A DNA stretch of 10,841 bases from an uncultured Coriobacteriaceae bacterium (GTDB lineage: Bacteria; Actinomycetota; Coriobacteriia; Coriobacteriales; UMGS124), in contig USJP01000023.1 in the NCBI GenBank assembly GCA_900555105.1, positions 1 through 10,841 of the forward strand. The letters run 5' to 3'. Shown one piece after another: positions 5,429 through 10,573 of the stretch. How positions within the stretch are numbered: the stretch's first letter is position 1; each line of letters starts with the position of its first letter. Under the pieces are notes generated by a model. The model did no database searches, was not told the DNA's origin, and saw nothing but the letters and a program-made list of their open reading frames with translations. Both the position numbers and the translations under genes were made by a program.

Positions 5429-6304
5429 ATGAACCTGCGTCATTTGGAGACGTTCGTTGCGGTGGCCGAAAAGGGCTCGTTTTCCAAGGCGGCCCAGGCC
5501 CTCTACACAACTGCGACTGCGCTGACGCAGCAAATCAATGCCCTCGAACGCGAACTTGGTTTTCAGCTACTCGCTCGTGATTACCGTGGCGCCTCGCTTA
5601 CTGAGGCCGGCTCGGTCTATCTTAGCCATGCGCGGGACATCATCAATCTTGAGCATACGGCCGAGCGAGAGGCGCGCGCTGTGGCGGGTCTGGGGCGTCC
5701 GCGCATTAACGTGGGTTCCTATCGCAACGTAGAACTCGTTTTACTTAAGGATGCGCTGGCGGGTTTTTCAAAGATTCATCCTGATGCCGACGTTTCCTTT
5801 GTGGATGGCAACTACCGCGACTTTCTCAATCAACTTGAGAGTGGTGACATCGACCTGTACATCCAGCCGTTCGATTCCGGGCTTGACCGCCCTGACATCG
5901 GTTTTCAGCGTATTGGTGCGACGGGTATCAGCTGCAGCATGGCGGTTGATCATCCACTGGCTTCTCACAAGTCTTTGTCTGTGGGCGATTTGGCCGACTG
6001 CGACGTCATTGTGAGCTGCGGGTGCGGGCTGCACTTGTTCGATGGACTCGGGCAGCGCCTGTTGTCTCGTGAGCCGAATATCCGCATCTGGAAATTTGCC
6101 ACAGACAGCGAGGTCTGGACGCATGTGCTCACGCGGGGGTTCATTCTTATGAACCTCGCCTATTCCGCACCGCTGCTTGGCAGTTCGGTAGCCGTGCCGA
6201 TTGACTGGCCCGAGACGTTCGAGTACGGCTATGTCTACCGCACTCCATGTTCGGATGTTGTCCGTGGGTTCCTCGATTATGCTGCGGGGCATCAACAGAT
6301 TTAA
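5429..6304 (+). CDS. LysR-family transcriptional regulator
   Basis: The protein has 291 aa and starts at ATG 5429 behind AAAAGGGGAG (5415-5424). Residues 1-60 are a textbook LysR winged helix-turn-helix: MNLRHLETFVAVAEKGSFSK, AAQALYTTATALTQQINALE, then RELGFQLLAR and LTEAG. The effector domain (about 90-291) binds a small molecule in this family; its C-terminal half has an unusual Cys pair in IVSCGCGLHLFDG. It lies 137 bases upstream of the flavoprotein operon in the same direction, the arrangement of a dedicated activator, although LysR genes are more often divergent. The ligand is probably the substrate or product of the reductase (inference). Codon choice is more mixed, with more T-ending codons, than in the flavoprotein gene. 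Confidence 0.93.
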   Translation: MNLRHLETFVAVAEKGSFSKAAQALYTTATALTQQINALERELGFQLLARDYRGASLTEAGSVYLSHARDIINLEHTAEREARAVAGLGRPRINVGSYRNVELVLLKDALAGFSKIHPDADVSFVDGNYRDFLNQLESGDIDLYIQPFDSGLDRPDIGFQRIGATGISCSMAVDHPLASHKSLSVGDLADCDVIVSCGCGLHLFDGLGQRLLSREPNIRIWKFATDSEVWTHVLTRGFILMNLAYSAPLLGSSVAVPIDWPETFEYGYVYRTPCSDVVRGFLDYAAGHQQI

Positions 6305-6310
6305 TAGGCC

Positions 6311-6389
6311 TTTCAAGTATTCATATAACCCTTCAAGCCTCTTGGAAACCCTGCTATTCACGGCACTTTGTTTCAGGATTACCTTTGAA
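6311..6389 (+). promoter_or_regulatory. TTCAAG half-site cluster in the leader of the flavoprotein operon (candidate LysR sites)
   Basis: TTCAAG occurs at 6312-6317 and again at 6332-6337, exactly 20 bases apart. The near-complements CTTGGAA (6341-6347) and CTTTGAA (6383-6389) follow, the first making an imperfect dyad TTCAAG-CCT-CTTGGAA. A possible -10, TATAAC (6324-6329), lies between the direct copies without a recognisable -35. This fits an activator-dependent promoter but is only suggestive. Confidence 0.35.
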
Positions 6390-6441
6390 TCAAGCGCGGG
6401 CATTCTCTGCGCAAGGGAAATCCGGTAACAAGGGGGTACAT

Positions 6442-8106
6442 ATGGGTGTTTCTGCATGTGTTGACAACGCGCTGAGCAGGCGTTCATTTATAAAGGGCGC
6501 AGCCGCTGCCGGCGCACTCGCGCTTGCCTCGGCTGGCACTGCTCGGGCCGATGTCGCAGTCACGGTGCTGCCTGAGACGTGGGACTACGCTGCGGACGTT
6601 GTTATCGTGGGTTACGGCGCTGCCGGCGCCATGGCGGCTCGCGAGGCTGTGGCCGAAGGTGCTTCGGCCATCGTGCTAGAGAAGTGCGACGAGGCCATGT
6701 GCGGCGGTTCGACGTGCGCCTCTGCCGGCGCTGTCTTCCCGAACGACCCGACGGCCATGTATGGTTGGTCGCGCGGCTACATCTCACAGGAGACCATCCA
6801 GGCTGTTGTCGGCGAAGGCATGGCCGACGCCGCATGGCTCGATGCCCATGGCCTCGACCGCGCGACGGGTGGCAAGGGCGTGTATGCCACGACGAAGCAG
6901 GCTGTGGACGCGCTGGGCGTAAACGTGCTGTATGAGACACCGGCCCGCCACCTCGTCCTCGACCCTGTTACTCGAGAGGTGCTTGGCGTGCAGGCCGAAG
7001 GCCCCGATGGCTCCATCGTCAACGTCAAGGCCAACAAGGGTGTTCTGCTTGCCAGCGGCGGCTTCTTGGGCAATTCCGAGCTTGTGGCACGTTTTGTAGT
7101 GCCCAAGGAGGTCGGCATGGCCAACCAAGGTGCCCCCACGTGCACCGGTGACGGCCTGCTCATGGCCCAGTCGGCCGGTGCGGCACTCAAGAACCTCACC
7201 TGGATGTGTCTCGAGCTCAACGGCCAGGCCAGCGTGGCGTTCCGCAAGGCAAGCGAGGAACTGGGCTGCGGCATGGCGCACACGCCCACCGGCGAGTTCT
7301 GCGGTGCCCGCATCATCGTGAACCAGCAGGCCAAGCGCTTCATGGATGAGGACAAGGAGTACATCCACACCAAGAGCCTGTATCCGCCCTTCGATTACGG
7401 CGGAGGCTGGATGACCTACACCGGTTTCAAGAACCTGCCGATGTACCTCATCTTCGACTCACAGCTTATGGGCAGCGGCAAGCTGAGCGGTGCTGATACG
7501 CTTTCGATGATCGGTTGGTCGTACGCCAAGGACATTTATACGTGGAGTGATGACAACCAGGCTGAGCTCGATCGTGGCTGGCTCGTCAAGGCCGACACCA
7601 TCGAGGAGCTCGTTGAGAAGCTCGCCGAGAACAGCGGCCATGAGGCGCTCGACGCTGCAGTGCTTCAGGAGACGATCGACACGTACAACAGCTATTGCGA
7701 GCAGGGTACAGATCCCGAGTTCCACCGTGCCGAGCAGCTGAACGCCTTCTACGGTACGCCGTGCCTGCAGCAGCTGGGCAAGCCTCCCTACTATGCGGCA
7801 GAGCTTGTGCCCAACGCTATCTACACCATCGGTGGCCTGCACTGGGGCGAGGACGGCTCGACCCTCGACTGGGACGGCAACCCCATTCCCGGTCTGTACC
7901 ATGCCGGCGATGTGGGCCAATACAGCGAGGTAAGCGTCGTGGGCATCGAGGACTGCATGGGCATGGGTTCCTACACCTGCCGCACGATTATCTCCAAGCC
8001 TGTCCGCGACATCTCTGGCGCTGTACTTGTTGAGGTGGAGGCACCGGCTGCCGACGCGAGCGCCGAAGCCGACATTAGCGCATATTACGCGACCGCTTCT
8101 GAATAG
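6442..8106 (+). CDS. Tat-exported FAD-dependent reductase (fumarate reductase/3-ketosteroid dehydrogenase-like flavoprotein)
   Basis: The protein has 554 aa. ATG 6442 has AGGGGG (6431-6436) upstream; the longer in-frame extension overlaps the LysR gene. The Tat signal is SRRSFIKGAAAAG (R13-R14), with probable cleavage after TARA (residue 36). The FAD_binding_2 fold follows: VVIVGYGAAGAMAAREA (53-69), E80, SAGAV (94-98), LLASGGFLGN (202-211) and TIGGL with IPGLYHAGD (462-490). By hand alignment to Shewanella Fcc3, the fumarate-binding His504 and Arg544 correspond to Ile460 and Val500, and the proton donor Arg402 to about Tyr307. So the FAD frame is kept but fumarate chemistry is unlikely; the substrate is unknown. 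No haem motif or FMN-bind domain is fused, so electrons must come from other proteins. It is first in a three-gene unit: AGGAGG of the next gene overlaps its TAG. Codons are strongly C/G-ending (AAG, GAG, CTC, ATC), which suggests high expression. Confidence 0.9.
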   Translation: MGVSACVDNALSRRSFIKGAAAAGALALASAGTARADVAVTVLPETWDYAADVVIVGYGAAGAMAAREAVAEGASAIVLEKCDEAMCGGSTCASAGAVFPNDPTAMYGWSRGYISQETIQAVVGEGMADAAWLDAHGLDRATGGKGVYATTKQAVDALGVNVLYETPARHLVLDPVTREVLGVQAEGPDGSIVNVKANKGVLLASGGFLGNSELVARFVVPKEVGMANQGAPTCTGDGLLMAQSAGAALKNLTWMCLELNGQASVAFRKASEELGCGMAHTPTGEFCGARIIVNQQAKRFMDEDKEYIHTKSLYPPFDYGGGWMTYTGFKNLPMYLIFDSQLMGSGKLSGADTLSMIGWSYAKDIYTWSDDNQAELDRGWLVKADTIEELVEKLAENSGHEALDAAVLQETIDTYNSYCEQGTDPEFHRAEQLNAFYGTPCLQQLGKPPYYAAELVPNAIYTIGGLHWGEDGSTLDWDGNPIPGLYHAGDVGQYSEVSVVGIEDCMGMGSYTCRTIISKPVRDISGAVLVEVEAPAADASAEADISAYYATASE

Positions 8107-8117
8107 GAGGTAGTTCC

Positions 8118-8660
8118 ATGAGTGGCATGAACAGGGAGTCCGAAGAGATGGGCCAGGGTATCGGCCGACGTGCGTTTTGTACCATGGCTGCAAGCGTCGC
8201 TGCTGCAAGCGTGGTTGGCTCGACCGTTGGATTGGCAATTGCTGACGAAAAGAAGGATGAATCCGATAAGGTTGATGCTGAGGCTGTCGATGCCTCAGAT
8301 GCAACGGAAGCGCCCATTTCACCTGCTGTCTTCGTAATCGACAGGCTGGAGGCAAAGCCTGGCGACGGTCCGGCGCTGCTCGAAGAGTACCTCACGTTTT
8401 ATGTCCCTCGTGCAGAAGCGTGCTATGCCGAGCTTGTGGCGACACGTGTCGCTCCGCCGTGCTGGCTTGACACGGACTCCAACACACTCGAGTTCACCTG
8501 GAAAGTAGCCGGTATTGGTGGTTGCTGGGGAATTGACAGCCCCTTGCGTGCAGACGCCGAGGTCGTGCAATGGTGGCGTGACCTGCGTGACCGCGTTGTC
8601 TCGCTGGATCGTTCTTACTTCGTTGACCCTGCCGATCTGGAGGTGCTGTGCAATGTTTAG
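8118..8660 (+). CDS. Small Tat-exported protein, possible alpha/beta-barrel (ABM-like) domain
   Basis: The protein has 180 aa. ATG 8118 follows AGGAGG (8105-8110), which overlaps the stop of the flavoprotein gene. It has a Tat-type signal: GRRAFCTMAAS (R17-R18) and a hydrophobic stretch to LAIA (residue ~42). Next is an acidic, Ala/Asp-rich linker (43-68), then a compact domain of about 110 residues: AVFVIDRLEAKPGDGPALLE (70-89), TLEFTWKVAG (123-132) and ADAEVVQWWRDLRDRVVSLD (145-164). The pattern beta-helix, beta, then a helix with WW is like small dimeric alpha/beta-barrel proteins, but the family is not certain. No metal or haem motif is seen. It is probably exported folded, together with or parallel to the flavoprotein, and so may bind or shape its substrate. 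The last bases overlap the next gene. Confidence 0.75.
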   Translation: MSGMNRESEEMGQGIGRRAFCTMAASVAAASVVGSTVGLAIADEKKDESDKVDAEAVDASDATEAPISPAVFVIDRLEAKPGDGPALLEEYLTFYVPRAEACYAELVATRVAPPCWLDTDSNTLEFTWKVAGIGGCWGIDSPLRADAEVVQWWRDLRDRVVSLDRSYFVDPADLEVLCNV

Positions 8661-9330
8661 CTCAACTTTTTTGGTTACCTATGCCCAGGGTTTGACGGAC
8701 GATGCGAAGAAAAGTCTTTATGAGGAACTTGATGCGGCTGGGGCGGCGATTGGCGATTGCTATGTGATTGGCGAGGTTCTTACGCCTGCCACAATGAATC
8801 CGGGCGACGTTCTTTTTGAGATTGGGTTTATCGACCAGGATTCCTATGAGGCTGCCAAGCGGACCGATGAATGGGCGCATCTTCAGGATATCCTTGACGA
8901 TGAGTCACGCGTTGCCCTGTATGACTGGGCTGCCTATGGAAAGGGAGCCGAGAACTTTACGGATACAATGGAAGCGCGCTGTCATCGAGTTTTGTTCATG
9001 CACGTGCGCGACGGCGCGGATCCCGAAATGGTGGATAAGGCCTATACGGCCACTTCACACATGCGTGAGTATGTGCCAGGGTTCCTCAATTCCAAGGTGT
9101 CCGCAACGATTGAAAGCGGAGGCCATTCAACCTGGGATTATGTGTTTGAGTGTGACTATGCCGACCCGTCTGTCTATCCGGGCGCCTATATCATGCATCC
9201 CATCCACATTGCTTACGTTGATCGGTTCTTTGAGCCTGCCTGTGCGCAGTGGGTGTTCGAGCCTGATTTGTGCACCTCGGTCATAGCGACCGATACGCCA
9301 TTTCTTGCCAACTATCCCGATGGGGAGTAG
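8653..9330 (+). CDS. Tandem dimeric alpha/beta-barrel (Dabb-like) protein
   Basis: The protein has 225 aa. ATG 8653 overlaps the previous stop (ATGTTTAG), with GGAGG at 8639-8643. There is no signal peptide, so a cytosolic location is expected. The C-terminal half looks like a stress-responsive A/B barrel (Dabb) domain: HRVLFMHVRDGADPEMVDKA (111-130), VPGFLNSKVS (141-150), WDYVFECDYADPSVYPGAYI (161-180) and HPIHIAYVDRFFEP (182-195). The N-terminal half (FLVTYAQGL, then DVLFEIGFIDQDSYEAAKRT at 52-71) repeats the same order of elements, so this is probably two barrels in one chain. Dabb relatives include small cyclases such as plant olivetolic acid cyclase as well as many proteins of unknown role. 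Conserved His111, His182 and His185 are candidates for ligand contacts. Translational coupling with its neighbour implies a shared pathway. Confidence 0.78.
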   Translation: MFSSTFLVTYAQGLTDDAKKSLYEELDAAGAAIGDCYVIGEVLTPATMNPGDVLFEIGFIDQDSYEAAKRTDEWAHLQDILDDESRVALYDWAAYGKGAENFTDTMEARCHRVLFMHVRDGADPEMVDKAYTATSHMREYVPGFLNSKVSATIESGGHSTWDYVFECDYADPSVYPGAYIMHPIHIAYVDRFFEPACAQWVFEPDLCTSVIATDTPFLANYPDGE

Positions 9331-9375: not shown

Positions 9376-9413
9376 CTAGGGCAATGCGACCAGCTCATGT
9401 AACGGGCTGTTAA

Positions 9414-9453
9414 AGAGGGGCTGGCTCCAGATGATTTTGGAGCTAGCCCCTCT
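9414..9453. terminator. Terminator-like hairpin between convergent genes
   Basis: A 16-bp stem (9414-9429 with 9438-9453) with one G-T pair and an 8-base loop lies between the flavoprotein operon and the minus-strand fusion gene. The U-run is poor on both strands (TCTGCTG on plus, CTCTTTAA on minus), so termination may be partial or the hairpin may act by protecting 3' ends. Confidence 0.65.
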
Positions 9454-9493
9454 GCTGTGTCGCATACCCGCCCGCTTCCATACCCTTACAACT

Positions 9494-10573
9494 TTACAGC
9501 TCGTGATAGTACGGCACGATGTCCTCATAGGTGTCGTTGGGCATGCGGAAGCCGCCGGGGATGACGCCCAGCTGGGTGAAGCCGAGCTTCTCGTAAAGGT
9601 GGCGGGCCACTGCGTTGGTGGCCACGACGGCGTTGAACTGCAGGATCCTAAAGCCGTGCGCTTTTCCTTGTGCGAGGCTGTCCCGCACGAGTGCCTCTCC
9701 GGCATGGCGCCCGCGCGCTTCGCGACTCACGGCGTAGCTTGTGTTGCAGATGTGCCCGCAGCGGCCCACGTTGTTGGGGTGAAGGATATACACGCCCATG
9801 ACCTCGCCTGTCTGCGGGACGCAGGCAATACCGCAGTGCGTCTGCTGGGCGAAGAATTCTGCGGCTTCCTCGGCGGTCAGGCATTCATCCTGCGGGAAGG
9901 CGATGCCGTCCTCGACCACTTGGTTCCAGATGTCGGTCATGGCAGGCACGTCGAAGGCGGTGTAGGGACGCACGACAAGCGGCTGGTCCAAAGCCGCGAG
10001 TTCGTTGGTGCTCATGATGCGCGCGCCGACGGCTGCCATGTCTTCGAGGTTGGCCTGCTGCACTTCGGCCGACCTGCTCGACGTTGCGTCTGCGAGCACG
10101 GCCACATCGAACCCGTGCGCCATGGCGTCGTAGCAGGTGGAGCGGATGCAGTTGGGCGTGGTGGTTCCCGCCAAGATGACGCAGGTTGCGCCCAGGTCGC
10201 GCAACATTTCCTTCAGGCCGGTGCGGTCGAAGGCCGACCAGCTCGGCTTCACGACGACCATCTCGCCAGGCAGTGCCTCAAGACCTGGGCGCGCCTCAAG
10301 CGTGTCGGGCCGGGCGTCGCTCAGGGGCTTTCCTGCCGCAAGCCATGCCTCGCGACGGCCAGGCTCGACGTCGTGCCCGTCGAGTGCGTAATGGCGGCGC
10401 ACGTGAATCACGGGAATGCCCTGCCTGCGTGCAGCTTCAAGGGCCTGAACGCATGCGGGCAGGGTTGCCTTGGCCCCTGCGATACAAAGTCCACCGTTGG
10501 GCTCAACGAAGCCATTCTGCATGTCGATGAGCACAAGCGCGCTGGTCTTGGGCGTAAGCACGGGCGAAGACAT
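9494..10573 (-). CDS. Fusion: isochorismatase-like cysteine hydrolase + GNAT acetyltransferase
   Basis: The protein has 359 aa. ATG 10571-10573 is chosen because AAAGGA (10580-10585) lies 6 bases upstream; the ATG 15 bases earlier has no Shine-Dalgarno. Residues 10-190 form an isochorismatase-type cysteine hydrolase: SALVLIDMQNGF (Asp17), VVVKPSWSAF (Lys109) and ILAGTTTPNCIRST (Cys142) give the Asp-Lys-Cys triad of the family, which hydrolyses amides such as nicotinamide, ureido compounds or isochorismate. Residues ~200-359 form a GNAT domain: RPYTAFDVPAMTDIWNQVV, then GEVMGVYILHP, the acetyl-CoA loop EARGRHAG (285-292) and ATNAVARHLYEKLGF (318-332). Both halves keep their key residues, so both are probably active. 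The enzymes may act in series on an amide or amine, but the substrate is unknown. It is monocistronic and convergent with the flavoprotein operon. Confidence 0.9.
   Translation of the reverse strand: MSSPVLTPKTSALVLIDMQNGFVEPNGGLCIAGAKATLPACVQALEAARRQGIPVIHVRRHYALDGHDVEPGRREAWLAAGKPLSDARPDTLEARPGLEALPGEMVVVKPSWSAFDRTGLKEMLRDLGATCVILAGTTTPNCIRSTCYDAMAHGFDVAVLADATSSRSAEVQQANLEDMAAVGARIMSTNELAALDQPLVVRPYTAFDVPAMTDIWNQVVEDGIAFPQDECLTAEEAAEFFAQQTHCGIACVPQTGEVMGVYILHPNNVGRCGHICNTSYAVSREARGRHAGEALVRDSLAQGKAHGFRILQFNAVVATNAVARHLYEKLGFTQLGVIPGGFRMPNDTYEDIVPYYHEL

Follow-up and report, generated by a model that had tools for sequence, protein, structure and literature searches.

Gene organization of the locus

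We analysed a 10,841-nt stretch of contig USJP01000023.1 (hereafter the window) from an uncultured Coriobacteriaceae bacterium, in which four co-directional genes on the + strand encode a LysR-type regulator, a flavoprotein with a twin-arginine translocation (Tat) signal, a small Tat-signal protein, here given the working name TatS, and a Dabb protein. The last two, both of the dimeric alpha/beta-barrel superfamily, make up a conserved pair that recurs near FAD_binding_2 flavoenzymes, including 3-ketosteroid dehydrogenases (KSTDs) in steroid-type catabolic clusters.

The regulator gene (5429..6304, 291 aa, Pfam HTH_1 and LysR_substrate), likely a local regulator, is separated by 137 bp from that of the flavoprotein (6442..8106, 554 aa), a putative reductase assigned to Tat export and to FAD_binding_2 from its twin-arginine signal and Pfam. 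The signal peptide, read by eye (SRRSFIKG ... ARA), spans 6442..6549 with an approximate end, and the Pfam TAT_signal model scores just below its cutoff (20.4 versus 22.7 bits). After a further 11 bp comes TatS (8118..8660, 180 aa), whose own signal (GRRAFC ... AIA), likewise read by eye, lies approximately at 8118..8243. TatS overlaps by 8 bp (8653..8660) the Dabb gene (8653..9330, 225 aa), the product of which opens directly with strand 1 and has no visible signal peptide. Coordinates, gaps and signals agree with the first-pass annotation of this DNA, which had described four co-directional genes, the last three overlapping or nearly so, with Tat signals on two products and one product cytosolic.

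TatS and Dabb form a conserved pair

Pfam recognises only the C-terminal half of Dabb (PF07876, residues 111-201, 33 bits versus a gathering cutoff of 25, E 1e-7). The AlphaFold2 model of the whole protein (mean predicted local distance difference test score, pLDDT, of 91) contains two ferredoxin-like units, which together with fold matches bears out its earlier description as a tandem Dabb protein. TatS is modelled with one such unit (residues ~70-175) preceded by a disordered signal and linker, at a mean pLDDT of 70 overall. Structure matches, to entries annotated as of unknown function or uncharacterised, make this unit NIPSNAP-like; the resemblance to NIPSNAP proteins is one of fold only, with no Pfam NIPSNAP match at E up to 1, and no meaningful match to a Pfam or NCBIfam model was obtained for TatS. 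A redox role for TatS was considered and rejected, its sequence showing no haem motif and no match to FMN_bind or Fe-S families.

Every one of the 23 Dabb-bearing loci scanned has TatS next to Dabb. The 8-bp overlap of the window is found again in eight other Eggerthellaceae loci (L001-L007, L049) and in 7/7 unfused Actinomycetota loci measured (L096, L097, L100, L101, L103, L104, L105), while it amounts to 4 bp in L050 and L051. In three Actinomycetota genomes a single open frame of 328-329 aa encodes both proteins (L098, 8814-9800; L099, 9277-10263; L102, 8517-9506), the loci L098 and L099 looking closely related. Chance does not account for the arrangement, since other genomes show the adjacency and the overlap again, and the fusions along with the overlap elsewhere indicate that TatS and Dabb probably form one complex.

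Alignments read by eye show a twin arginine in 20/20 TatS sequences and a signal peptide in 0/22 Dabb sequences; in the other Eggerthellaceae loci, the aligned TatS signal is followed by a lipobox-like Cys. Tyr179, Pro183 and His185 of Dabb, within the motif YIMHPIH (9187..9207), are invariant in 22/22 and 13/13 aligned sequences, and so is Trp161. We take Tyr179 and His185 to be the counterparts of Tyr72 and His78 of olivetolic acid cyclase (OAC), matched through the shared HPxH motif. OAC is a single-domain plant polyketide cyclase, whereas the window Dabb is tandem; its Tyr72 and His78 are described as acid and base of the reaction (PMC7962319, PMC8156804).

Co-occurrence within Coriobacteriia

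A Dabb profile found matches in 8 of 396 Coriobacteriia genomes and in 8 of the 138 genomes of a single family (that of genome G001). The TatS profile matched 24 of the 396, at full length only in the same eight; the other matches (E 4e-5 to 1e-3) cover the N-terminal part only. These eight genomes hold ten full-length TatS copies, each adjoining Dabb (one Dabb being cut by a contig end), and an eleventh Dabb match is a 44-residue fragment at the end of a contig. Carriers include Adlercreutzia equolifaciens, A. caecimuris, A. muris, Raoultibacter timonensis and metagenome-assembled genomes of Gordonibacter, Enterorhabdus and Adlercreutzia.

A FAD_binding_2 gene lies 2.06-2.26 kb from Dabb in eight of nine testable copies and at 3.7 kb in L051; the tenth copy, L004, was left out as its contig ends there. 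L050 has a second flavoprotein only 0.1 kb from Dabb. This locus (7510-14029) holds the second TatS-Dabb copy of R. timonensis, which is flanked on both sides by flavoprotein genes. The co-occurring module of an exported FAD_binding_2 flavoprotein and two alpha/beta-barrel-fold proteins put forward by the first-pass annotation is therefore retained, with two corrections to its membership. The place of LysR is taken next to TatS by a LuxR-type (GerE) gene in 10/10 other Eggerthellaceae loci (Pfam on three loci, BLAST for all ten), so that LysR is no conserved component of the module, and the flavoprotein is not a constant member either, as the pair is found with four or more distinct flavoprotein clades.

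Adlercreutzia-type genomes also have, downstream of Dabb, a CoA-ligase-like (AMP-binding) gene (L001, 11060-12295, the one checked by Pfam), with similar genes in L003, L005, L006 and L008.

The pair in steroid-type clusters of other Actinomycetota

Among 396 sampled Actinomycetota genomes, the Dabb profile returned 11 at E <= 1e-10, three of them Adlercreutzia genomes already counted. The remaining eight genomes, of 5-7.5 Mb, carry near full-length Dabb with TatS alongside in 8/8, no Tat signal being seen in these pairs, and a FAD_binding_2 gene 2.1-7.8 kb away, again in 8/8. A TatS profile built from Eggerthellaceae and metagenome sequences only recovered TatS in seven of the eight and on both Rhodococcus plasmids described below, at E 1e-25 to 1e-34 as obtained in small protein sets. 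The TatS of L097 is absent from the gene calls and was seen by translation and with a wider TatS profile. Profiles of the neighbourhood scan include sequences from several of the scanned loci, and the independent evidence consists of the Dabb genome search and the Eggerthellaceae/metagenome-only TatS profile.

The nearby flavoprotein is of the 3-ketosteroid type in seven of these eight genomes and in Rhodococcus jostii RHA1. In L096 it matches PDB 4AT0, by its title a 3-ketosteroid-delta4-(5alpha)-dehydrogenase (KSTD4(5alpha)), at E 1e-227. Close copies of this flavoprotein and of the adjoining HsaA-like and HsaC-like genes are present in L098, L099, L100, L102 and L103 (77-96% identical; 77-90% for the flavoprotein); none was found in L097 or L101 within the fetched stretch. 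Against a curated 3-ketosteroid-delta1-dehydrogenase (KSTD1) cutoff of 793 bits, the L097 and L105 flavoproteins score 1034 and 1068. HsaA- and HsaC-like neighbours occur in six of the eight genome loci and in L105. Judged from these matches, these clusters with TatS-Dabb are steroid-type. An IclR-type gene like that of L096, possibly a common regulator, is present in 8/8 of these loci and in L104 and L105.

Five plasmid records with TatS or the pair were found. On pRHL1 of R. jostii RHA1 (L105), the pair, without Tat signals, lies 6.1 kb from a KSTD1-like flavoprotein, in the company of KshA_C (E 4e-84), HsaA-like and HsaC-like genes. What looks like a decayed copy of the pair, TatS with a short remnant of Dabb, lies next to a KSTD1-like gene on a Nocardia farcinica plasmid (L108, 11986-12502).

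The window flavoprotein

The flavoprotein of the window belongs to the FAD_binding_2 superfamily of fumarate reductases and KSTDs (PF00890, 128 bits versus a cutoff of 20.4, E 6e-37). A protein search returned one relative at 98% identity and others at 56-77%. In a tree of 64 rows, made by a quick method and with several long branches, the window clade (A), the Adlercreutzia-type clade (B), KSTD4(5alpha) and the KSTD1-like proteins are separate groups, so the flavoenzyme near the pair belongs to different subfamilies in different loci. Orthology of the window flavoprotein to those of the Adlercreutzia modules was ruled out by this tree and by an identity of ~30%.

By eye, clade B and the KSTD1-like proteins show a C-terminal Tyr(x3)Gly pattern, which we take to be the keto-binding pattern of KSTDs, and clade B also keeps a further Tyr of KSTDs. 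A soluble fumarate or urocanate reductase was considered for the window protein and rejected: it has Tyr461 in place of the substrate His and no Arg in the aligned segment, where we assume the His of HTMGG and the Arg of an ANRLGG-type motif to mark such enzymes.

Pfam finds no FMN_bind domain (PF04205) in the window flavoprotein. FMN_bind is listed for 8 of 10 of its relatives P0064-P0073 (56-59% identical). Around more distant relatives (L080, L081, L082, L084) there are NrfD-like and Fe-S-like genes, in many cases joined by a cytochrome c3-like gene; these neighbours were assigned by Pfam for L080 and L082 only, with a cytochrome match below cutoff in L082, and otherwise by gene order and starts. 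Since distant relatives adjoin such genes and the window enzyme has no FMN_bind domain, its electron donor is probably encoded elsewhere.

Interpretation and alternative explanations

We hold with high confidence that the flavoenzyme and TatS-Dabb are a conserved functional module. A steroid-like substrate for this module is suggested by the clusters described above and falls just short of an even call, and our tentative proposal, placed slightly lower still, is that the operon encodes a flavin reductase module that is exported and acts on a steroid-like compound, meaning a polycyclic ketone or enone. TatS and Dabb would assemble into one complex, which in Eggerthellaceae the TatS signal would carry out of the cell with Dabb already folded (hitchhiker export), beside the exported flavoprotein. 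The pair would then bind a ring ketone and enolise or isomerise it by acid-base chemistry through Tyr179 and His185 of Dabb, so that the double bond is moved into or out of conjugation ready for the flavin. The flavoprotein, fed by a donor encoded elsewhere, would reduce the enone as an electron sink, and LysR would sense the substrate.

Several observations weigh against this proposal. The HsaA-like and HsaC-like proteins of ring cleavage score under the curated HsaA and HsaC cutoffs (in L096, 367 and 366 bits, each versus 450; against the BphC model the HsaC-like protein reaches 371 versus 366), and the clusters may therefore serve a related polycyclic substrate instead. Only part of the L101 flavoprotein lies within the fetched stretch, at its edge, and this protein was counted without a type. 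In the window itself, the flavoprotein stands phylogenetically apart from both the ketosteroid enzymes and clade B, remains under the NCBIfam 3-ketosteroid dehydrogenase cutoff (161.8 versus 789 bits with the best model) and, like the rest of its clade, lacks by eye the Tyr(x3)Gly pattern. With this separate clade and missing pattern, the steroid argument reaches the window through the TatS-Dabb pair alone, and the weakest link is which class of substrate the enzyme of the window itself takes. No electron donor gene was recognised and no cytochrome gene found among the window proteins scanned. As to Dabb, His111 is not conserved, being Tyr in the Actinomycetota homologues, and the Tyr179/His185 pair is presumably a general Dabb feature. 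In favour of the proposal, an independent lead comes from Caenibius tardaugens, in which genes described as hypothetical protein, Dabb and NADP-dependent oxidoreductase were up 9-, 15- and 11-fold on progesterone versus testosterone (PMC12239570); their likeness to TatS-Dabb is by annotation only.

The alternative that survives best takes TatS-Dabb as a non-enzymatic pair that solubilises a hydrophobic substrate and passes it on to the flavoprotein. Many dimeric alpha/beta-barrel proteins are known solely as binders, TatS matches no recognised catalytic family, and the lipobox-like Cys of other Eggerthellaceae TatS proteins is as in surface binding proteins. The invariant Trp161, Tyr179, Pro183 and His185 nevertheless resemble an active site, and clustering with catabolic enzymes is compatible with enzyme and binder alike. 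We regard a delivery pair of this kind as unlikely, and an isomerase role rather than pure binding as a possibility that we advance with reserve.

The first-pass annotation had placed the two small proteins on opposite sides of the membrane. In such a layout TatS would work outside, alongside the flavoprotein, and Dabb independently in the cytosol, on an imported product or as a sensor. With no signal peptide in the 22 aligned Dabb sequences and a twin arginine in all 20 aligned TatS, the simplest reading of Dabb by itself is that it stays cytosolic, a further point against our proposal. The fusions in three genomes and the conserved gene overlap fit partners of one complex better, and point to a single unit. 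The Tat pathway exports folded complexes, and with a Tat signal on TatS only, Dabb may be co-exported; we consider co-export by the TatS signal an evenly balanced question, and a split arrangement slightly less probable than the delivery pair discussed above.

In a flavonoid or other polyphenol system, the tandem Dabb would open or close a ring in the manner of the Eubacterium ramulus chalcone isomerase, leaving the flavoprotein to reduce the enone. Such a system would account for the acid-base residues and for two ferredoxin-like domains per chain, a likeness established by fold matching. That isomerase is nevertheless larger, with a lid, and its resemblance to Dabb stops at the common fold (12-16% identity); structures of anthrone oxidase-like proteins and sulfur oxygenase reductase match Dabb as well or better. 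A profile search of PDB sequences gave no chalcone isomerase and hence detected no sequence similarity, an absence that is not proof, and the neighbours in Actinomycetota loci are steroid-type. We find this explanation improbable, and more so than the split arrangement.

Finally, coincidence, by which Eggerthellaceae have so many flavoprotein genes that one adjoins any gene pair, is very hard to sustain even though FAD_binding_2 genes number from 36 to at least 82 in each of the eight module genomes and 8-14% of random genes are expected to have one within 2.3 kb (counts and expectation being lower bounds in G002 and G087), because the link recurs in separate arrangements, namely the window clade, clade B, KSTD4(5alpha) and KSTD1 loci. 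It is true that most of the Eggerthellaceae loci share a single orthologous arrangement and represent few independent events, which tells against our proposal as well. So do the plasmids of R. erythropolis R138, Burkholderia arboris and Streptomyces, where the pair has no flavoprotein detected within ~12-15 kb (L104, L106 and L107, the last two read by six-frame profile search only). The earlier concern that the small genes might lie mostly away from flavoprotein genes is thus not borne out in Eggerthellaceae (8/9 within 2.3 kb) and holds for three of the five plasmid records.

Comparison with known systems

Among described systems, Cgr1/Cgr2 of Eggerthella lenta, a Tat-exported cardiac glycoside reductase with Cgr1 as its cytochrome c (PMC5953540), is alike in that a FAD_binding_2 reductase of this bacterial family is exported by Tat and has the gene of a partner next to its own. 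It differs in that its partner, as described there, is a cytochrome c, whereas the window proteins scanned include none and two barrel-fold proteins take its place. The 4AT0 enzyme and the Rhodococcus-type KSTD1 are likewise FAD_binding_2 proteins, and their own clusters carry the TatS-Dabb pair; no Tat signal was seen in the KSTD4(5alpha) and KSTD1 proteins of Rhodococcus and relatives, while the window flavoprotein belongs to a distant clade without the KSTD pattern. BaiP and BaiJ of gut Firmicutes are FAD-dependent bile acid 5alpha-reductases of 3-oxo-delta4 steroids, and baiJ had earlier been annotated as a fumarate reductase and as a ketosteroid dehydrogenase; compared by description only, the portions of that source consulted do not mention a TatS or Dabb partner (PMC9645264). 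The E. lenta cac cluster, considered as a possible instance of the same module, has a similar look, with LuxR, a secreted flavoprotein and unknowns, but its Cac6 is an SPFH protein. No published description of the present system was found in the open-licence literature, in keeping with its earlier designation as undescribed.

Other features of the window

A perfect 18-bp hairpin follows the Dabb gene at 9414..9453 (-39.3 kcal/mol, z -5.9 for 9405-9470). Lacking a T-run, this hairpin is not among the terminator-scan results; it may mark the transcript end. Further downstream, on the - strand, 9494-10573 encodes an isochorismatase-GNAT acetyltransferase fusion protein. Upstream of the operon, 1420-2014 on the - strand holds a probable PemK-type toxin (23.2 bits, cutoff 23.1) with a Phd/YefM-type antitoxin (24.0, cutoff 29.8), and 283-1350 a possible methyltransferase/spermidine-synthase-like gene with a repeated insert mid-gene (GDAAC-type repeats, by eye) and insignificant Pfam matches. 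A DNA neighbour search of the 396 class genomes found no close relative of the window; 188 matched in transporter (SNF) DNA, at <=76% identity among the matches listed.

Implications

Gut Eggerthellaceae act on drugs and plant compounds as well as on bile acids and hormones. Our best reading gives the locus an exported flavin reductase whose barrel-fold partners, a pair that steroid-type catabolism also has, would be exported together, the substrate and chemistry being what we infer. In its widest form, which we consider speculative and unlikely, TatS-Dabb would be an undescribed two-protein enone/ketosteroid isomerase or carrier with three ferredoxin-like domains, partnering FAD_binding_2 ketosteroid-type enzymes in oxygen-dependent steroid catabolism and in anaerobic gut reduction alike, and relocated to the surface in gut Eggerthellaceae, together with the flavoprotein, by a Tat signal on one subunit.

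That TatS-Dabb is shared by soil and gut bacteria suggests a common, unstudied step in the handling of steroid-like molecules, and flags TatS, a family with no Pfam or NCBIfam match, as an unstudied part of steroid-type catabolism. The pair is also a clean test case for hitchhiker Tat export. Being common to Rhodococcus steroid-type clusters, it gives a subset of the Eggerthellaceae FAD_binding_2 enzymes a concrete, testable substrate class.

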